Assembly (NCBI RefSeq): GCF_027925385.1
Contig: NZ_AP027142.1
Coordinates: 2,842,501-2,906,500, forward strand
Reading direction: 5' to 3'
DNA length: 64,000 bases
Origin: Methylocystis iwaonis
GTDB lineage: Bacteria; Pseudomonadota; Alphaproteobacteria; Rhizobiales; Beijerinckiaceae
Part shown: one piece after another, positions 3,835 through 15,049 of the stretch
Layout: every line of letters starts with the position of its first letter
Numbering within the stretch: the first letter of the stretch is position 1
The notes under the pieces: model-generated
The model's database searches: none
Seen by the model: the letters and a program-made list of their open reading frames with translations, nothing else
Told to the model about the DNA's origin: nothing
Translations under genes and position numbers: made by a program

Positions 3835-5171
3835 GAGAATCGCGCTCCCAGGCCTTCCATCAGCACGCGAAAGGACGGGAAGCTCGTCGCGATCATCGTC
3901 TCGTCGTCGACTGTCACCTTATTTTGCGCGGCCAAGCCCATGACGAGAAAGCTCATGGCGATGCGATGGTCGAGATGCGTCTCGACCACGCCGCCGCCGG
4001 CCACAGCGCCGCCGCGCACGATGAGATCGTCGCCGATAATCTCGCAGTCGACGCCATTGGCCTTCAACCCGGCGGCGATGGCGGCGAGGCGGTCCGATTC
4101 CTTCACGCGCAATTCGGAGAGGCCGCGCATGCGCGTCTCGCCTTTGGCAAAGGCCGCGGCGACGGCGAGGATTGGATATTCGTCGATCATCGAGGGCGCG
4201 CGTTCGGCCGGCACGTCGACTCCGTTTAGGGCCGAATAGCGCGCGCGCACGTCGGCGACTTCCTCGCCGCCCTCCTCTCGCTTGTTGTCGAGAGAAATAT
4301 CCGCGCCCATTTCGATGAGCGTTGTGAGCAGGCCGCTACGCAGCGGATTGGTCATCACGCCTTCGACGACAATGTCGGAGCCGGGAACGATCAGCGCCGC
4401 GACCAGCGGAAAGGCGGCCGAGGAAGGATCAGCCGGCACGCGCACGGGGCGCGCTATAAGCTCGGGGCGGCCTTCGAGCGTGATCTTGCGCCCATGCGGA
4501 CCATGCGGCTCGCTCGTCACCGTCGCGCCGAAATGGGCGAGCATTTTTTCGGTGTGGTCGCGCGAGGCCTCGGCCTCGATCACCACGGTGCGGCCGGGCG
4601 AGTTGAGCCCGCAGAGCAGCACGGCCGACTTGATCTGCGCCGAGGCGACAGGGGTTTTATATTCCACCGGCAGCGGCTCGGCCGAGCCCTGCAGCACGAG
4701 CGGCAGACGGCCGCCTTCGGCCTGCTCCAAGAGCTGCGCGCCCTGAAGCGCCAGCGGATCGAGAATGCGCTTCATCGGGCGCTTGCGCAGCGAAGCGTCG
4801 CCGTCGAACCGCGCGACGATCGGATGGCCGGCGACGACGCCCATCATCAGCCGCGAGCCGGTCCCGGCATTGCCGAAGTCGAGCGTCTCCGTCGGCTGCA
4901 GAAGCGAGCCGAGCCCCGCCCCCCAGACGCTCCAGCTTCCCGGCGCATGCCGCACCACCTTGGCGCCGAGCTGGCGTGCCGCCTGCGCCGTGCGCAGCAC
5001 GTCTTCGCCCTCCAAAAGTCCGTCGATCTTCGTCTCGCCTACGGCGAGAAGGCCGAAGATCATGGCGCGATGCGAGACGGACTTATCCCCGGGCGGCCGC
5101 ACGCGGCCCGAGAGCGGGCCAGAAGCGACGGCGCTCAGCGGCGCAGCGGGAGCATGGGTGGCGGCGTCCAA
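3831..5171 (-). CDS. aroA: 3-phosphoshikimate 1-carboxyvinyltransferase (EPSP synthase)
   Basis: A 446-residue EPSP synthase, sixth step of the shikimate pathway, joining phosphoenolpyruvate to shikimate 3-phosphate. The N-terminal [17 protein letters not shown], the [15 protein letters not shown] loop (the GNAGTA-type phosphoenolpyruvate loop with glycine at the last position) and the later [16 protein letters not shown] are all present. GNAGTG rather than GNAGTA resembles the alphaproteobacterial class II-like enzymes. The best start is a TTG at 5171 with GAGG about nine bases ahead; no in-frame ATG lies near. It forms a unit with cmk. Confidence 0.95.
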
Positions 5172-7454: not shown

Positions 7455-8561
7455 CTATCCGATCCTGAAATGTTTCGACAATTTCAGCCCTTGGCCCTGA
7501 TAGTTCGAAAGTCCTTCTTCGCCGTAGAGCGACTCCGGCGTCTCGGCCATGCGCTCATAGACCAGGCGGCCGATGAATTGGCCGTCCTCCAATATGAAGG
7601 GCACTTCGCGCGAGCGGACCTCCAGCACGGCGCGCGCGGCTGGGAGTCCATCCGGCCCGGCGCCGAAGCCGGGATCGAAAAAGCCGGCGTAATGCACGCG
7701 GAACTCGCCAATTGCGGCGTCCATCGGCGCCATTTCGGCGGCCAGCCCAGGCGGGATCGCGAGGCGCTCGCGCGAGGCCAGGATGTAGAAGTCGCCCGGA
7801 TCGAGGATCAACCTGCCGCCGCGGGCCGGCAGCTCGTCCCAGTAATCGTCGACGCGATAGGCGCCGACCCGGTCGACGTCGATCACATCCGTATGTTTCT
7901 GCGCGCGATAGCCGATGATCCCGCCGAAAGCCTCGGCCCCGAGCGCCACGCGCAGCACCACGCCGTCGCGCAGATTGAGCGCCCCGTCGACGAGCGGCGC
8001 CTTCCCGTGCAGCTCGGCGAGCGCCGCATCGGAGAGCGCGAAGCCGCTCTGCCCGCCCGCTCCTTCCGGACGCGTCCGGAAGCGAAGCTGATTGAGCCGC
8101 GACCCCATGCGCACGCGCACCGAGAAGCTCCTTGGCGAGACCTCGGCGTAAAGCGGCCCATCATAGCCGGGCGCGACCTCGTCGAAGCGCTCGCCCCTGT
8201 CGGTGATGAGCCGGGTGAAAATATCGAGGCGCCCGGTCGAGCTCTTGGGATTCGCCGCGCCCGAAACATCCTGGCCGAGCGACAGGCTTTCGAGCAGCGG
8301 CACGACATAAACGCAGCCGCGCTCGAGAATGGCGCCCTCGCCCTCGAGCGACATTTCGTCATAGGCGAGCGCCGAGAGTATATCGCGTACGCCCCGCTCC
8401 TTGCCGGGCAGGAAGCTCGCGCGCACGCGATAGGCCTTGGAGCCGAGCCGCAGGTCGAGGCTTGCCGGCTGGATTTGATTGCGGCTTAAAGGCGCGGCGA
8501 CCTGGATCGCGCCGCTGTCGGCCATCGCCTGTATCTGTCGGCTGGAGAGCACGCCGCTCAT
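7455..8561 (-). CDS. dcd: 2'-deoxycytidine 5'-triphosphate deaminase, long form
   Basis: A 368-residue dCTP deaminase of the long alphaproteobacterial form, about twice the length of the Escherichia coli enzyme. It makes dUTP for thymidylate synthesis; dut, which uses that product, is encoded at 31 kb. The N-terminal SRNQIQPASLDLRLG and the later GFFDPGFG stretch are dUTPase-superfamily motifs, and the two halves look like a duplication of that fold. The frame allows a start at 8585, but the ATG at 8561 follows a strong GAGGAGG. It stands 27 bp upstream of the kinase gene, so the two could share a transcript. Confidence 0.9.
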   Translation of the reverse strand: MSGVLSSRQIQAMADSGAIQVAAPLSRNQIQPASLDLRLGSKAYRVRASFLPGKERGVRDILSALAYDEMSLEGEGAILERGCVYVVPLLESLSLGQDVSGAANPKSSTGRLDIFTRLITDRGERFDEVAPGYDGPLYAEVSPRSFSVRVRMGSRLNQLRFRTRPEGAGGQSGFALSDAALAELHGKAPLVDGALNLRDGVVLRVALGAEAFGGIIGYRAQKHTDVIDVDRVGAYRVDDYWDELPARGGRLILDPGDFYILASRERLAIPPGLAAEMAPMDAAIGEFRVHYAGFFDPGFGAGPDGLPAARAVLEVRSREVPFILEDGQFIGRLVYERMAETPESLYGEEGLSNYQGQGLKLSKHFRIG

Positions 8562-8822: not shown

Positions 8823-10007
8823 ATGTCTACGAACGCCCCGCGCAATCTCAAGCCGGCGACGCTCCTTGTCCATGGCGGAACGACGCGCTCGCCCTTCGGC
8901 GAAATGTCGGAGGCGCTGTTTCTGACGCAGAGCTTCGCCTATCCGACGATGGAGGCGGCCGAGGCGCGGTTCAAGGGCGACGATCCTGGCTTCATCTATT
9001 CGCGTTTCTCAAACCCGACCGTCGCCATGTTCGAGAACCGCATGTGCCTGCTGGAGGGCGCAGAGGCCGCTCGCGCCACGGCGAGCGGCATGGCCGCCGT
9101 CACGGCCGCCATCCTCGCGCAACTGAAGGCCGGCGATCATGTCGTGGCGGCCCGCGCGCTGTTCGGCTCCTGCCTCTATGTGGTCGAGGACCTGCTGCCG
9201 CGCTTCGGCGTCGCCTCGACGCTCGTCGACGGCGCGGACCTCTCGCAATGGAAGGCGGCAATCCGCCCCGAAACCAAGCTTTTCTTCCTCGAAAGCCCGA
9301 CCAATCCGGGCCTCGAAGTCTATGACGTCGCGGCGATCGCCGACCTCGCCCACAACGCCGGCGCGCGCCTCGTCGTCGACAATGTCTTCGCGACGCCTTT
9401 GCTGCAGAAACCTTTGGCGCTGGGCGCCGACGTCGTCGTCTATTCGGCGACGAAACATATCGACGGCCAGGGCCGCTGCCTCGGCGGCGTCATCCTCTCG
9501 ACACAGGCGCTCATCGAGGAGAGCATCCATAATTTCCTGCGCCAGACCGGCCCGGCCATGTCGCCCTTCAACGCCTGGGTGATGCTGAAAGGCCTCGAAA
9601 CCCTTCCCCTTCGCGTCGGCCAACAGGCGGCGAGCGCCGCCAGGATCGCCGATTTCCTTGCCGAGCAGAAGGGCGTGACGAAGGTTCTTTATCCCTTCCG
9701 CAAGGATCACCCGCAGGCTGAGCTGGCGCGCCGGCAGATGAGCGGCGGCGGCACGCTGGTCAGCTTCTTCCTGGAGAGCAAGGCGGCGGCCTTCAAGCTC
9801 GCCAACGCGCTGCAGGTGATCAAGATTTCCAACAATCTCGGCGACGCCAAGAGCCTGATCACCCACCCGGCGACGACAACCCACCAGCGCCTCACCCCGG
9901 AGGCGCGCGCCACGCTCGGCATCACCGACGGCATGCTGCGCCTCTCGGTGGGGCTGGAGGACGCCGACGATCTGATCGACGATCTCGCCGCAGGCTTGGC
10001 GGCATAA
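8823..10007 (+). CDS. metZ: O-succinylhomoserine sulfhydrylase
   Basis: A 394-residue pyridoxal phosphate enzyme of the Cys/Met metabolism family that turns O-succinylhomoserine and sulfide into homocysteine. Motifs seen are YSRFSNPTVAMFE near residue 60, SGMAAV for cofactor phosphate binding, DNVFATP, and the Schiff-base lysine in SATKHIDGQGRCLGG. The last motif, with GQGR, separates MetZ from cystathionine gamma-synthase. The ATG has AGGGAGAA before it. The SAM-II riboswitch directly upstream supports the methionine role. Confidence 0.95.
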   Translation: MSTNAPRNLKPATLLVHGGTTRSPFGEMSEALFLTQSFAYPTMEAAEARFKGDDPGFIYSRFSNPTVAMFENRMCLLEGAEAARATASGMAAVTAAILAQLKAGDHVVAARALFGSCLYVVEDLLPRFGVASTLVDGADLSQWKAAIRPETKLFFLESPTNPGLEVYDVAAIADLAHNAGARLVVDNVFATPLLQKPLALGADVVVYSATKHIDGQGRCLGGVILSTQALIEESIHNFLRQTGPAMSPFNAWVMLKGLETLPLRVGQQAASAARIADFLAEQKGVTKVLYPFRKDHPQAELARRQMSGGGTLVSFFLESKAAAFKLANALQVIKISNNLGDAKSLITHPATTTHQRLTPEARATLGITDGMLRLSVGLEDADDLIDDLAAGLAA

Positions 10008-10160: not shown

Positions 10161-10338
10161 CAATGCGACCGATTCAACGGAAATGGTATGACGGGCGCAC
10201 TCAAGCGCGCCCGTTTCTTTCAATTGGGACCACTTGCGCGCCGGAGCGCGGCGCGTCCGTTGCTCTCGACTAGCGCGCTTTCCGCTCGCATGGAATCATG
10301 CGATCTATGGAAAAAACGCGTAGATTCAAAAAGCTGGA

Positions 10339-10382
10339 GCGCATTCCTTTCGCAGAAGTCTATCAACTTTTGCGGAATGCGC
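10339..10382. repeat. REP-like palindrome overlapping the end of a small gene
   Basis: Arms GCGCATTCC (10339-10347) and GGAATGCGC (10374-10382) enclose a 26-nt loop. On the minus strand a T5 run follows six bases after the hairpin, so it may also end the operon transcript. The last codons and stop of the 52-residue gene (AFRKS) lie inside the repeat. Confidence 0.6.
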
Positions 10383-10521
10383 GGTAGGCCGACCGCTTGC
10401 GCGCCAAGACTGGCCGCAATGCGGGGGCGGCTTCCTGGCGCAAGCAGTCGACGACGAAAACGGCGGCCGTCAGCACCGCCAGGATCATCTCGACGCCGAC
10501 CGATAGGACTGACTCGGACAT
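10363..10521 (-). CDS. Small single-pass membrane protein, function unknown
   Basis: A 52-residue protein with one predicted membrane helix (about residues 9-26, VEMILAVLTAAVFVVDCL) and a basic C-terminal tail. The longest frame starts earlier, but the ATG at 10521 follows a strong GGAGGAAAG. It is the last gene of the receptor/DUF2946 operon, 99 bp after the third DUF2946 gene. Its C-terminal end is made from a REP-like repeat. I do not recognise a family; the ribosome-binding site and position are the reasons to call it real. Confidence 0.5.
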   Translation of the reverse strand: MSESVLSVGVEMILAVLTAAVFVVDCLRQEAAPALRPVLARKRSAYRAFRKS

Positions 10522-10620
10522 TCTTTCCTCCACGCCGCCGCAGCGGCGACAATGAAACAGGGATTCGCGTCGGCGCCTCAAGGAGGGAACGAGCGCCGAC
10601 GCAAACCCGCCTGGGGGGCT

Positions 10621-11028
10621 TCAACCGGTCGCCGGCGGCGCCCGCGCCCAGTGCGGCAGACGGGTCCGGGTCGTCGGCGCAGCGCGGTCCGCCACCATCC
10701 AGGGGAGGTTCAGTCTCTGGATGTGCGCCGCAACGACGACACCGGGCCGGACAGCCAAGGGCGCAGCGCCACTGCAGAGCGTCTGACATAGGACGCAATC
10801 GATGCCGTGGTCGCTGACGGAGCCTGGCCGCCCTGTCTGCGCGTCGGGCAAGGAGGCGCCCGACGCGAAACAAACGAAAAGAGACGCAACGGCGCCCGCC
10901 CCCGCGCGCAGGCCCATGGCGAGCGACGCCGCGAACGGCGCTCCCGTCACAAGGGCCGCAGCCAGCAGCAGCGCGCGCGCAAAGCGGCTCGCTGCGGCGG
11001 GGCGCAGGAAAGAAAGGCGATGCGTCAT
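10621..11028 (-). CDS. DUF2946-like secreted Cys/His protein (third in operon)
   Basis: A 135-residue protein with a hydrophobic export signal (about residues 16-38) and a short mature domain. Its centre has SDHGIDCVLCQTLCSG, a His/CxxC/CxxxC cluster also seen in two other genes of this operon, and it ends in ARAPP plus a few residues. DUF2946 proteins are small exported proteins often found near copper-handling genes or TonB receptors; their biochemical role is not established. The gene begins 11 bp after a 72-residue gene, in the same direction. The ribosome-binding site is weak. A metal-binding role in the periplasm is an inference from the Cys/His cluster. Confidence 0.7.
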   Translation of the reverse strand: MTHRLSFLRPAAASRFARALLLAAALVTGAPFAASLAMGLRAGAGAVASLFVCFASGASLPDAQTGRPGSVSDHGIDCVLCQTLCSGAAPLAVRPGVVVAAHIQRLNLPWMVADRAAPTTRTRLPHWARAPPATG

Positions 11029-11039
11029 CTCGGTGTTCT

Positions 11040-11258
11040 TTAGGATTCGAGGCGCGCGAAACGCGCCCGTCGCTCCAGATTGATCAGTCGGATGCCGCTC
11101 TGCTGGGCGTCACGCCACATTGCGACAACCGGCGCGATCATCGGCGCCGCCGACGCCATGATCTTTCGCTCATGACGCTCGCGCTCTTTCAAGGACGAGA
11201 GCGCGGCGCCCGCCAGGACGCAGTCCCGGCCGCTCGGCCGTCTTTTCTTTCTGCTCAC
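11040..11258 (-). CDS. Small basic protein of unknown function in receptor operon
   Basis: A 72-residue, Arg/Lys-rich protein. The longer frame begins at 11309, but the GTG at 11258 follows GGGAGAAG at good spacing and gives a start MSRKKRRPSG. A middle stretch (IMASAAPMIAPVVAMW) is moderately hydrophobic, too short and interrupted for a clear membrane helix. It ends 11 bp before a DUF2946-like gene and follows another, so it belongs to the same transcript. No family is recognised. Confidence 0.5.
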   Translation of the reverse strand: MSRKKRRPSGRDCVLAGAALSSLKERERHERKIMASAAPMIAPVVAMWRDAQQSGIRLINLERRARFARLES

Positions 11259-11363
11259 GATACTTCTCCCTTCACCGCAGTCACACGGCGATTGTCGTCG
11301 CTCGGGCATGGGAACGCGCGCACCTGAAACAGGGCGGATTCCTATGACAAAGTCTTTGGACGA

Positions 11364-11732
11364 TCAGGAGAAGCTGGGGGGCCCGCGGGCGCGATTGGCC
11401 TCGTCGAGCGACGAGCTCGCCAATGCGCGGTCCGCCGGAAACCAGCGGAACTCGACCCATTGGACAGGCGCCATGCCAAGCGAGGTCGGGCGCGACGCAA
11501 TCGGCGCGACGCCGTCGCAAAAGGCCTGGCAGATCGGGCAGTCACGGCCGCCATGAGAATGGCCGGGCGCTTGAGAGCCGCTCTGCCCGCCTTTGGGGGC
11601 CTTCAGGCAAACGCCAATGGCGGGGTCGGCCTCGCTCTCCCGCGCGGCGGCAAGGCTGCTCGACAATGGCGCAAAGACCTGGACGGCCAGCGCCAAAGCG
11701 AAAAGCACCTTTGTCAGCCACACACGCGGCAT
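11364..11732 (-). CDS. DUF2946-like secreted Cys/His protein (second in operon)
   Basis: A 122-residue protein. The start MPRVWLTKV at 11732 gives a good signal peptide cut near residue 30 (SSSLAAA). A longer frame begins at 11870, one base after the receptor stop, and could be translationally coupled, but it would bury the signal peptide. The mature part holds PGHSHGGRDCPICQAFCDG, a His-rich stretch before CxxCxxxC, and the tail ends RARGPPSFS. The same cluster and an AR-x-PP tail occur in the two other DUF2946-like genes here. It lies directly downstream of the TonB receptor. Confidence 0.75.
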   Translation of the reverse strand: MPRVWLTKVLFALALAVQVFAPLSSSLAAARESEADPAIGVCLKAPKGGQSGSQAPGHSHGGRDCPICQAFCDGVAPIASRPTSLGMAPVQWVEFRWFPADRALASSSLDEANRARGPPSFS

Positions 11733-11871
11733 GAAGAAAGCCTGTCTTTCAATTTCGCCAAAATGAGCGGGTGGATTGAAGCAAACGCAGCCCGAGTCCG
11801 CAAGCAGCGCTGCGAGGCCCGCGTCGACATGCGTCAAAACGCCGCAGAAACGGGCCGCGGGCGTCGCCATC

Positions 11872-14508
11872 TCACCGCGCCCCGGGGACGCCGGCGCCGA
11901 CGCCGCCGTTCAGCCCCGCAACCGTCGCGGCGCCGTCCAGCCCGCCGATATCGTATTTCAAGCCAAGGAAGAACGTGCGCTGGTTGTAGGGATTGGGGTT
12001 CACATAGTATTTCCAGCGGCCGATGTTGTCGACGCCAGCGGTCAACGTCCACTCTGGCGCGAGCTTGTAGTTCATCTTGGCGTCGAAGACGAGATATTCG
12101 CTGTCGACGCTGCCGTAATTATTGTGGTTGAAATCCACGTTGTTGAGCGTCACGAAGGCGGCCGACGCATAGCGCGCGCCAAAGGAGATCGACCAATCCG
12201 TCGTCGGGCTATAGCTCAGAACCGAGCGGATGCGGATGCGCGGCACGCGCGGATATTGCATGCCGTTCAACAAGACGCCGGCCGCTGTGGGGAATGGCGA
12301 GCCGCTCGCCCCGCCCGTCGTCGCCAGAGCGCTGCCATTCGACAGAATCTTCGCATCGACGAAGGTCACGCTGCCGGAATAATCGAGGCCCGGAGTCAGA
12401 ATATCCTTCATCACGATCGCCGCCTCGACGCCGCGGAAGCGCGCTTTGTCGAGATTGGCGTTCTGCGTGACGATCTGCCCGGTCGGACCGATCGAGGACT
12501 GGCTGACGATGGCGTTCCAGCGGTCGTCCAGGAAGAGGCTCACGCGTGGATTGAACAGGCCGACCGCGCCGTTGAAGGCGTCGACCTTCCGATACTCGCC
12601 GGTCAGATCCCAGGAGGTCGAGATTTCGGACTGCAGGTTGGGATTGTTTAGGACCAGAGTGCTCGACGTCGCGAGCGACTGGAACAGCTCGTTGACGGTC
12701 GGGAAGCGATAGGCGCGCCCCATGGAGCCCCGCAAAGCGAATTCCGGCGTGACCTGATATTCGAGCGCCGCCTTCGGCGAAAAAGAATTTTTATAGGCGT
12801 CGGGGAATTGCCCGACTCTCGCCTGCGCCGGTACGACCGGCACGAGACCGGAGGCCGGTCCGCTGCCCGTAGCCAGGCCGCCCGCGACATTCGAGCCGTT
12901 ATAGGCATGCCAGAACTCGCCGCGGCCGCCGGCGATGAGCTTCCAATCCGGCAGGAACTTCCAGGCGTCCTGGATATAGACCGCCTTGGTTTCGGTTTTC
13001 CCGTAGTTCACGCCGGTGAGGCCCATCGCATAATTATTGCCGGCGAAGGGCGTCAGGGTCGTCACCGTGTTGAGCGAATAGACGTCGGCATGCCCGCCGA
13101 AGGAGACTTCGTGCTTTCCGAAGGCGTCCTGCATAGGCCGCCAGATGAAGCGGGCGTCGCCGGTGCGCCAATAGGTTCCCGTGTTTACGGTGTTCTGGCC
13201 GGTGGTGTTGATATTATAGGCGGTCGCGGCGTCGTTGGGGCGCAGGCCGTAGGACGTCGCGTTTTGCGAATAATCGCGCAGGAAGTTGTAGGACGTCGCC
13301 GAGAGATCGAAATCGAACACGCCGCCGGTGTCACGCTTGAGCGAGAGCGCCTGCATGAGATGCGTCGAGCCGCCCCAGCCGGGGTTCACGCCGCCCGGCG
13401 TCACGGCAAAGGAGCCGATAACGACGCGGCCGCTCTGCGTATTGTAGATCGGAACGCCGTTGCGATCGTAGATGAAGCTTTGGACGGTCGTCTTGTTTTC
13501 GAGGTTCCAGACGCCGAGCGTATAGGTCGCGCGCAGCAGCGGCGCGATGTCATAGGACATCTTTAGCTTCGCCATGTCCTGTTGCTGGAAATCGGCGCCG
13601 GCCGCGCCCGTGATGATGCGGGGAATGCCGTTCTGATTGAAATCCTGATAGCCGCCGAAGAAGCGCGTGCCGTTTCTGGGGGCGAAGGGCGTCATAAAAT
13701 TGCCGGGGAAGGTTTGCGCCTGTCCCTGCGAGGTGAGGTGGTCGTAGGAGAAGAAATAGCGGAAGTCGCCGAAACGATCGCCGATGAGAAGATTGGCGTT
13801 GCCCGAGCCGTCGAGCTCGCTGCGTCCATAGAGGCTGAAGGGCTGCAGCGCGCCGGTCGCCGAGGCGTGCAGCTCGAATTTATCCGGCATGCGCGTGGTG
13901 ATCGCCAATACGCCGCCGATCGAATTGCCGGGATAGAGCGCCGAGAAGGGGCCATAGATCACGTCGACGCGGTCGATCTCGGCGGGCGAGACCATGCCCC
14001 AGCGCGGCGGGAAGTTGAAGCTGTTGCCGAGCAGATTGGAGAGCAGCACATTATCGGCGTAGACGAGCGTCTTGGCGCTTTCGATCGTGCCGGTCGTGCG
14101 GCCCGAGACGATGGCGTTGCGGTCGCCGATATAGCGCTCGCGAATGAGCAGCGAGGGCAGATATTTGAACGCCTCCGCCGAGGTCATGACATTGACCGTC
14201 TCCTCGATCTCCTGGCGCGTGCGCGACTCCACGACCGCCGGCACATTTTGCGGAATCGTGCGGCTGAACGGCGCGGGCTTGGGCTCGGCGTAACGATCGA
14301 GCCCCGTCGAGGGCGCGGCCACTGGGCCGGCGGCGGGGGCGGACGGGCGCACGGGACCGCGCGGCGCGCTGGAGACGCTCGGCCGCGCCGGTCCGCGCCG
14401 CGCGCCGACGTCGATGGTGGGCAGGCTTTGCTGCGCCAGCGCATCGGCGGACACGAAGAAGAGAAGCGCGTTGATCGAGGCGGCGCCCAGGAGATGGTGA
14501 CGGTTCAT
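11872..14508 (-). CDS. TonB-dependent outer-membrane receptor
   Basis: An 878-residue receptor for TonB-driven uptake across the outer membrane. From MNRHHLLG it has a signal peptide ending ALA-QQ, then a possible TonB box LPTIDVGA, a Pro/Ala-rich linker, a plug domain (about residues 75-195, including SGRTTGTIES and RVDVIYGPFSALYPGNSIGGV) and a 22-strand-type barrel. The frame is open further upstream, but that part is not signal-like. After the last strand (RTFFLGLKYDI) about 22 residues rich in Gly/Ala/Val follow, whereas most barrels end on an aromatic residue. DUF2946-like genes on both sides suggest a metal ligand, as for the OprC/NosA copper receptors; the ligand itself is not shown by the sequence. 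Confidence 0.9.
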   Translation of the reverse strand: MNRHHLLGAASINALLFFVSADALAQQSLPTIDVGARRGPARPSVSSAPRGPVRPSAPAAGPVAAPSTGLDRYAEPKPAPFSRTIPQNVPAVVESRTRQEIEETVNVMTSAEAFKYLPSLLIRERYIGDRNAIVSGRTTGTIESAKTLVYADNVLLSNLLGNSFNFPPRWGMVSPAEIDRVDVIYGPFSALYPGNSIGGVLAITTRMPDKFELHASATGALQPFSLYGRSELDGSGNANLLIGDRFGDFRYFFSYDHLTSQGQAQTFPGNFMTPFAPRNGTRFFGGYQDFNQNGIPRIITGAAGADFQQQDMAKLKMSYDIAPLLRATYTLGVWNLENKTTVQSFIYDRNGVPIYNTQSGRVVIGSFAVTPGGVNPGWGGSTHLMQALSLKRDTGGVFDFDLSATSYNFLRDYSQNATSYGLRPNDAATAYNINTTGQNTVNTGTYWRTGDARFIWRPMQDAFGKHEVSFGGHADVYSLNTVTTLTPFAGNNYAMGLTGVNYGKTETKAVYIQDAWKFLPDWKLIAGGRGEFWHAYNGSNVAGGLATGSGPASGLVPVVPAQARVGQFPDAYKNSFSPKAALEYQVTPEFALRGSMGRAYRFPTVNELFQSLATSSTLVLNNPNLQSEISTSWDLTGEYRKVDAFNGAVGLFNPRVSLFLDDRWNAIVSQSSIGPTGQIVTQNANLDKARFRGVEAAIVMKDILTPGLDYSGSVTFVDAKILSNGSALATTGGASGSPFPTAAGVLLNGMQYPRVPRIRIRSVLSYSPTTDWSISFGARYASAAFVTLNNVDFNHNNYGSVDSEYLVFDAKMNYKLAPEWTLTAGVDNIGRWKYYVNPNPYNQRTFFLGLKYDIGGLDGAATVAGLNGGVGAGVPGAR

Positions 14509-14560
14509 TGTGCAAATCCGGAGAGCTTCGCGCGCTCTCTCGCACGCCGGCTCCCCGCGT

Positions 14561-14570
14561 GGGGGGGGGG
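14561..14570. repeat. Homopolymer tract of ten G (C on the coding strand) before the receptor gene
   Basis: An uninterrupted run of ten G lies 52 bp upstream of the receptor ATG, inside the 166-bp gap between the first DUF2946-like gene and the receptor. Tracts of this length slip during replication in many bacteria. Confidence 0.9.
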
Positions 14571-14674
14571 CGTCGCGAGGGCGACAAGCGGAGCAAATCT
14601 TGTGGGAGAGCGGCAGGGGCCGCTCAACTGGACCAAGGAAAATGCGCGGGCAGGCGGCGAGGACGCGCCGCCGC

Positions 14675-15049
14675 TCACGCGCTCGGGAAAATTGCAGGCG
14701 GGCCCCGCGCGAGCCGGCCGCGCGCAAGGCGCGCCGGCGCGCCGGCGCTATCGGCGGCGACAAAGCGGGCGCTGTGAAAGATGCGGGGCTGGGCGGGAAC
14801 GGGATAGAAAGCCCCGACCGGAAGCGAGGGCGGCCCTGCGCAGAGAAGGCAGGACTCGCACATATGATGGTGCGCGTCGCGGCCTGTGTCGCCCGAGCCG
14901 GGCTCGCTGGCGTGCGACAGGCCGCAATGGGCCGAGATTTGCGGATCGAAGCCGCTGGGCGCCGCCCGCGCAGCGCCGAACCCGCCCGCCACGGTCTGCA
15001 GGACCATGACGAACGCGAGCAGCAAGGCGCGTAGCGATGACGGCCGCAT
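14675..15049 (-). CDS. DUF2946-like secreted Cys/His protein (first in operon)
   Basis: A 124-residue protein and the likely first gene of the receptor operon. The ATG follows GAGGAA. The signal peptide runs to about residue 29 (GGFGAARA), and the mature part has DAHHHMCESCLLCAGPP, three histidines followed by CxxCxxC, with the tail ARGPPAIFPSA. It shares the layout, though little other sequence, with the genes at 11364 and 10621. Export and metal binding are inferred from these features. The upstream region has the half-sites GGATTTTTACGACGG and CCGTAAAAG, which may take part in control. Confidence 0.75.
   Translation of the reverse strand: MRPSSLRALLLAFVMVLQTVAGGFGAARAAPSGFDPQISAHCGLSHASEPGSGDTGRDAHHHMCESCLLCAGPPSLPVGAFYPVPAQPRIFHSARFVAADSAGAPARLARGRLARGPPAIFPSA

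Follow-up and report, generated by a model that had tools for sequence, protein, structure and literature searches.

Organization of the locus

In methanotrophs, copper is the overriding signal for methane oxidation. In the genome of Methylocystis iwaonis, three small DUF2946-type genes alternate with a gene for a TonB-dependent receptor and two genes for small proteins, and the question raised by this locus is what three such relatives do side by side. An earlier note on the window, by which we mean the whole 64,000-nt stretch of DNA analysed, had described six minus-strand genes here, one of them for a TonB-dependent receptor, and the six open reading frames lie where it had placed them. It had also called the presence of three DUF2946-type members unusual, and we agree that their occurrence side by side is an oddity. 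We refer to the genes as A to F in the direction of transcription (uORF, upstream open reading frame; SD, Shine-Dalgarno sequence; hyphenated entries give cysteine motif, residues between, proline motif and residues after it).

14675..15049, minus strand: A, CruR/DUF2946-type uORF, 124 amino acids, CESC-47-RGPP-6, preceding the receptor gene
14509..14674, minus strand: A-B intergenic region, 166 nt, C-rich; conserved pairing of uORF tail and SD not found here
11872..14508, minus strand: B, TonB-dependent receptor, 878 amino acids (PF00593, PF07715)
11775..11804, minus strand: promoter-like element 5' of C, TTGCGG (11798-11803), 17 nt, TTCAAT (11775-11780)
11364..11732, minus strand: C, CruR/DUF2946-type uORF, 122 amino acids, CPIC-47-RGPP-3
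11367..11373, minus strand: CTTCTCC in the final codons of C, 3' of the RGPP codons, predicted anti-SD for D
11263..11270, minus strand: GGGAGAAG, the SD of D, predicted to pair with the tail of C
11040..11258, minus strand: D, 72 amino acids, GTG start, conserved end RLI[DN]LERRARFxR
10621..11028, minus strand: E, CruR-type uORF, 135 amino acids, CVLC-47-RAPP-3, homologue of C, starting 11 nt past D
10561..10608, minus strand: conserved hairpin of 14 pairs in the E-F intergenic region
10363..10521, minus strand: F, 52-amino-acid protein with one hydrophobic span (by eye)

Each DUF2946-type gene is followed by a gap, of 166 nt after A, 105 nt after C and 99 nt after E, and 139 nt separate B from C. 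Inspection by eye found neither a signal nor a membrane span in D. A search of PHROGs at E 0.01 gave no match for D, E or F, and for B the 23 NCBIfam families listed do not include the OprC-type receptor model TIGR01778. Directly after F lies a copy of GATTCCATGCGAGCGGAAAGCGC (window positions 10275-10297), an interspersed repeat with 27 copies in the genome at no more than two mismatches, another of which stands before the second uORF of the methanobactin (mbn) locus described below.

Three probable CruR-type upstream open reading frames

The PF11162 (DUF2946) profile matched C at 30.4 bits (E 7.4e-7) and A at 22.9 bits (E 1.6e-4), below the Pfam cut-off of 23.7, and gave no match to the E protein; among orthologues of this fifth gene, 2 of 10 matched, with a best E value of 0.1. 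E is homologous to C, with 36% identity over 83 amino acids (E 1e-12 for the pair). In a tree of the uORFs, E, C and the C-type sequences of Methylosinus group together with a support of 0.93, the C/E sister node having 0.14; two entries of this tree were a chance match to the pattern (Sm6_x1) and a duplicate. The DUF2946 kinship that the earlier note had seen in all three proteins is supported, as is, by family, the link to copper that it had drawn for them.

In all three proteins a CxxC motif is separated by exactly 47 residues from R[AG]PP, which three to six final residues follow; each also has a hydrophobic, signal-like N-terminus (by eye) and a histidine ahead of the cysteine cluster. 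The N-terminus, the histidine and the tail had been noticed in the earlier note and are confirmed on inspection; the tail, then described as AR-x-PP, is present and is reinterpreted here as an R[AG]PP arrest motif. A tolerant CxxC-R[AG]PP pattern matches three times in the 64-kb window, at A, C and E, against a chance expectation of 0.01 per window for shuffled residues; sequences simulated with Markov models of two orders, 60 for each, contained none. Among relatives that match the pattern the spacing is 46-48, some copies of A reading there as CxxxC-46, and it hardly changes, whereas most of the other sequence drifts.

The published literature offers two characterized relatives. CruR of Bordetella pertussis is a DUF2946 uORF in which stalling at RAPP keeps bfrG on, and copper at the CxxC motif releases the ribosome, upon which Rho terminates transcription (Roy 2022, PMC9426467); a copper-responsive uORF of this type with an arrest motif has been described there. 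The CxxC-RAPP spacing in CruR is 45 and the gap that follows is 162 nt (PMC9426467). Arrest of CruR at RAPP was demonstrated in vitro in 2025 (PMC12992588), and the receptor that follows it, BfrG, was renamed CrtA in 2026 as a copper transporter (PMC12914433, PMC13038864). The present locus shares with the CruR-bfrG/crtA-bp2921 operon the DUF2946 uORF, the CxxC motif, the terminal R[AG]PP (RAPP in CruR), the near-constant spacing, the long gap and the downstream TonB receptor, and CxxC with a terminal R[AG]PP at near-constant spacing is what A, C and E all display. The B. pertussis operon as described there has one uORF, in first position, that acts on a TonB receptor, whereas the present locus has two in one probable unit and a third beside it, and two of the genes that would be controlled encode the small proteins D and F.

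The second relative, CutF of Rhodobacter capsulatus, is likewise a DUF2946-type sensor acting in cis, but of opposite sign, and a stem-loop covers the SD of cutO (PMC9973294). CutF has a CxxxC motif and another proline motif, copper induces the system, and the stem-loop lies in a 40-bp gap (PMC8456105); A, C and E depart from this type in both their CxxC motif and their gaps of 99-166 nt. Because CutF works the opposite way, the sign of the response here is uncertain, and copper might cause stalling and turn the following genes on. CutF is after all a DUF2946-type sensor with a shielded SD whose target is made when copper is present (PMC9973294). We regard a response of this sign as quite unlikely at the present locus, given the CxxC and R[AG]PP motifs, which are those of CruR, and the repression of the CruR receptor operon by copper (PMC9426467).

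Both published systems also bear on the proposal of the earlier note that the three proteins are secreted periplasmic carriers that serve the receptor and pass copper on. Signal-like N-termini, Cys/His clusters and the occurrence of DUF2946 genes beside receptors agree with such a role. However, CruR was undetected in proteomics and showed no complementation in trans, its CxxC and RAPP motifs acting in cis (PMC9426467), and secreted CutF is degraded (PMC9973294). At the present locus the CxxC-R[AG]PP spacing is nearly fixed while the rest drifts, and the codons of C after RGPP fit a role in RNA. The threefold alternation of a DUF2946-type gene with another gene, the former followed each time by a gap (166, 105 and 99 nt), fits one sensor for each target and would be unexpected for a relay of carriers. 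We therefore find the carrier proposal highly improbable. Given the cis action reported for CruR and CutF and the motifs shared with them, A, C and E are most likely cis sensors, with B, D and F as their respective targets, and A and B would form a classical CruR-receptor unit.

Conservation of the layout in Methylocystis

The layout is marked by D, which is present in 27 of 39 Methylocystis genomes including our own, and all 27 loci (our own and 26 others) were read. C stands ahead of D in every one of them, with a CxxC-R[AG]PP spacing of 47 in 26 and 48 in one, and a C-D gap of 92-116 nt. E follows D in all 27, one copy being truncated by a contig end. A lies upstream in 22; three contigs end too early, and two genomes (G160 and G114) have no A there. 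A receptor ends 80-186 nt 5' of C in 25 of the 27 loci. In eight of these 25 its C-terminus is different (...FKF), and the stretch resembling B covers only the first 206-255 residues, at 26-33%, in seven, with none listed in the eighth (G170); the ...FKF receptor beside the C unit looks as if it had been swapped in, A and C being retained.

Among 26 complete copies of E, 23 stop 1-5 residues past R[AG]PP and three (G162, G163, G150) run on. F lies 91-114 nt after E in 22 of the 26 loci not truncated by a contig end and was not found in the other four, G114, G162, G163 and G150. At three loci without F (L106, L108 and L122) the E frame extends well beyond R[AG]PP, as though maintenance of the tail had ceased; in G114, F is missing yet the tail of E is short. 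Median pairwise dN/dS was 0.38 for A, 0.38 for C, 0.28 for D, 0.52 for E and 0.48 for F, the set for F omitting our own copy and its two nearest relatives, which the filter had missed.

In Methylosinus sp. Sm6 and in G146, from another genus of the family, an F-like protein comes next after D and E is missing from the interval. Two further genomes (G178 and G057) have C together with a D-like and an F-like frame, and a complete E is absent. Relatives of D at E 0.01 number 129 among the 8000 candidates sharing most words with it, which were the ones scored; among the 120 matches listed, the names given are Methylocystis, one Hyphomicrobiales and one Alphaproteobacteria MAG, and the nearest named relative is Methylocystis sp. 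Sn-Cys (99%). A search of the class (A4) matched in six of 57 other genomes, once in each, at a sensitivity too low to judge how rare serial uORFs are. A second open reading frame of the genome (L038, G000:C1:451877-451957) has the RLIDLERRARFAR ending of D, and the uORF pattern had no match in the 3 kb of that locus.

Two probable transcription units

The earlier note had seen no convincing break across the six genes. The 139-nt gap between B and C, however, holds a promoter-like element, TTG[CT]NN-17-TTNNAT, which recurs in 26 of the 27 loci, 41-62 nt upstream of the C start; in the 27th the C start is over-long in the set used. The element came to light in an alignment of 12 loci 5' of C, which has a conserved [CG]TTG[CT]...TTTGCTTnnAT. 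A scan for consensus promoters returned none in the B-C gap and two weak minus-strand candidates within B, and the same scan reported a weak terminator-like stem of five pairs (11786-11802) that overlaps the promoter-like element of C.

Since this element precedes C, the claim of one operon is weakened. C to E in G114 and C to F in G160 occur without a receptor just upstream, and in G146 C-D is oriented away from the receptor. Together with the promoter-like element, these arrangements lead us to conclude from sequence that C-D-E-F probably forms a unit distinct from A-B, with E internal to it, although read-through from B may occur. CruR-type genes are said to stand first in their operon 'in most cases' in the text and 'systematically' in a legend of the same report (PMC9426467); here C has the promoter-like element before it, and E, right after D, is internal.

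Predicted pairing of the C tail with the Shine-Dalgarno sequence of D

C ends in RGPP-SFS-stop, and the DNA immediately 5' of its TGA reads CTTCTCC; the SD of D is GGGAGAAG. Folding of single sequences, from which this helix originates, predicted the SD core of D to be paired with the tail of C with a mean probability of 0.95 (lowest 0.56) in 26 distinct loci. Synonymous recoding of the last ten codons lowered the mean to 0.59, all 26 loci lying above the mean of their own control, and a cruder, fixed 12-nt SD window gave 0.31-0.88. Relatives use other matched pairs, such as AACTCC with GGGAGT. A stall was modelled as a ribosome that sits on the initial proline of R[AG]PP and covers 16 nt, which raised the probability that the SD of D is free from 0.01 to 0.45, with a rise above 0.3 in 25 of the 26 loci. 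In this model a ribosome that has stalled at RGPP would cover the last codons of C, and the codons that follow RGPP fit an RNA role. RNAalifold, supplied with 24 of the 27 loci, did not return the tail-SD helix, and a search of Rfam gave no match up to E 1.

An SD mask that a stall could open is predicted in silico for C-D but not for A-B or E-F. Two kinds of known system share parts of it. With SecM-secA and the Sec/YidC-related arrest peptides (PMC10987492) it shares a helix over the SD that would be opened by a ribosome stalled close to where the uORF ends; those peptides monitor protein localization, and here the CxxC metal site would take the place of the pulling partner. With CutF-CutO the locus shares the shielding of the next gene's SD by RNA pairing, but the anti-SD lies in the uORF's own last codons and would pair across ~105 nt. 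The CutF authors thought such translational control likely to be limited to short gaps (PMC9973294), and a tail-SD match would let uORFs with long gaps control translation beyond that expectation. The predicted pairing of the C tail with the SD of D at 26 distinct loci is what we regard as new; among the main texts of the best-matching papers listed, we found no account of matched anti-SD tails or of serial CruR uORFs.

The A-B and E-F regions and other loci

Tail-SD pairing was rejected for E-F (0.26 against 0.34 in the control; 19 loci) and for A-B (0.00, with an SD core in only five loci), and the stall model freed the SD in 3 of 19 E-F and none of 6 A-B loci. When 42-nt tails were compared as matched and mismatched duplexes, energies at C-D hardly differed (-23.42 against -22.69) and those at E-F (-19.14 against -20.02) and A-B (-17.83 against -18.60) went in the wrong direction; the signal described in the next section needed a wider set of loci and 15-nt tails.

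The E-F region instead carries the conserved hairpin. In an alignment of 21 of the 22 loci, pairing is kept in 98.3% of cells (92.5 in shuffles), 22 cells are changed on both sides (7.1 shuffled) and the covariation score is 0.270 (0.153 shuffled), slid versions scoring far lower. Two-sided changes affect five pairs against 3.6, a number reached by 18 of 500 shuffles, and further pair types show no excess (12 against 12.3). Many of the two-sided changes may be one inherited event. The same alignment has an apparent contact between the loop and the SD.

At other loci, tail-SD pairing was 0.69 in Sm6, 0.96 in G146, 0.94 in G178 and 0.02 at C-D of G057. Among other uORFs of our own genome it was 1.00 before a receptor (L024), 0.88 before mbnPH, 0.33 before exbB, and 0.01 and 0.00 before two other receptors, and three more had no recognizable SD. 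The share of recodings that equal or exceed the pairing observed is no more than 5% only in Sm6 (0.03), L024 (0.02) and the exbB case (0.05).

Generality across the order

Of 150 genomes of the order, 30, our own included, had a PF11162 match at E 1e-5. Outside the genus, 21 of the 29 loci fetched had a usable SD core, two of these lacking an R[AG]PP end, and mean tail-SD pairing there was 0.74 against 0.35 after recoding, for which Methylocystis codon usage served as a stand-in; 17 of the 21 exceeded their control and 13 exceeded 0.8. We then compared duplex energies between the 15-nt tail and the SD region in loci ending in R[AG]PP, 26 in number and thinned by similarity to 22, which removes kinship only in part. 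Matched pairs averaged -10.83 and mismatched pairs -6.95, with p 5e-5, the lowest value that 20,000 permutations allow, and perfect runs of at least six pairs occurred in 11 of 22 loci against 10% of mismatched pairs. When the SD was left out of the choice of start, the values were -9.51 and -6.58 (23 loci, p again at this lower limit), with such runs in 8 of 23 against 7%. Ordinary same-strand gene pairs of Methylocystaceae, 63 of them called by a purpose-written script, had no run of six or more and a mean of -6.83; among the 30 with an SD-like motif there was again none, the mean being -7.63. Under the stall model, SD freedom rose by more than 0.3 in 9 of 19 usable loci of the order set, from 0.16 to 0.43 on average.

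These figures bear on the possibility that CruR-type uORFs act only through Rho-dependent termination in the intergenic regions, the tail-SD pairing being incidental or secondary. Termination by Rho was shown in B. pertussis, where the evidence on CruR comprises experiments with bicyclomycin and termination assays in vitro (PMC9426467), whereas tail-SD pairing is what we propose here. The gaps after A, C and E are long, that between A and B is C-rich, and A-B has no tail-SD pairing, so A may itself act through Rho termination. As the only mode of action we consider it unlikely: throughout the order the match between tail and SD is locus-specific, at C-D it surpasses the synonymous control, and windows of C over G, the Rho signature, do not separate the A-B, C-D and E-F regions from ordinary genes. 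That the codons after RAPP or RGPP carry, order-wide, an anti-SD matched to the next gene and form a SecM-like copper switch over ~45-125 nt, which Methylocystis has stacked twice, making the final gene dependent on two stalls, seems to us an even bet.

Two proposed sensors in series

For the locus itself, we think it probable that A, C and E are CruR-type copper-sensing uORFs that each control the following gene, that they belong to two units, that C-D works in a SecM-like manner and that E-F is placed in series with it. Motifs, spacing, conservation, the promoter-like element and the predicted pairing can be read in the sequence; from CruR we infer copper as the ligand, the stalling and the direction of the response. 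By that analogy, when copper is low a ribosome would arrest on the R[AG]PP codons close to where the uORF ends, and the gene that follows would be expressed; copper bound to the nascent CxxC would release the stall and turn that gene off. C-D-E-F would be transcribed from its own promoter. The anti-SD in the C tail would mask the start signal of D unless a stalled ribosome covered the tail.

E starts 11 nt after D, and the D-E gap is 3-12 nt in 19 of 26 loci (25-105 nt in the other seven), which suggests that E is probably translated by coupling to D. With such coupling, F would need the stalls of both C and E, a two-step relay. At low copper, C would stall, the SD of D would open, D would be made, E would be entered by coupling and would stall in turn, and F would be made; with copper, C would be completed, its tail would mask D, E would not be reached and expression of F would cease. 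As both D and F are targets beside the receptor, our best guess is that they are small helpers or regulators of copper uptake. The tail-SD match would give a large family, of which the two members studied respond in opposite ways, a specific mechanism that is easy to mutate.

Other uORFs in the genome

The genome has 14 DUF2946-like open reading frames, 11 of them with the full CxxC-R[AG]PP pattern, and they precede receptors, exbB, methanobactin genes, a lone pmoC and other genes. Together they may make up a copper regulon that nascent chains control. The mbn locus (L019) shares with the present one the possession of two CruR-like uORFs, at 4575-4985 before mbnPH (TIGR04052, TIGR04039) and at 7503-7841 upstream of mbnB (8922-9761, TIGR04159), but its targets are methanobactin genes; by eye, a sigma-factor-like frame and mbnA lie between the two uORFs. 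About 200 nt precede the second uORF, which makes a separate promoter possible.

A further, weak match to the CruR alignment (E 0.025) lies at G000:C1:1681139-1681489. Two divergent CruR-like uORFs stand at 6233-8086 of L018, one before exbB (by Pfam, with exbD and tonB by eye) and the other before a TonB receptor. L020 and L023, on two other contigs, carry very similar cassettes of a CruR-like uORF, a sigma factor, FecR and a receptor. In the 9.5-kb locus L016, where pmoA and pmoB were not recognized by eye, the gene for PmoC (PF04896; 5929-6702, minus strand) is preceded by a DUF2946 frame (31.3 bits; G000:C1:1257932-1258234) that ends in RAPP and whose cysteine motif is CCILHC, not CxxC; it is possibly a copper-sensing uORF on a subunit of methane monooxygenase.
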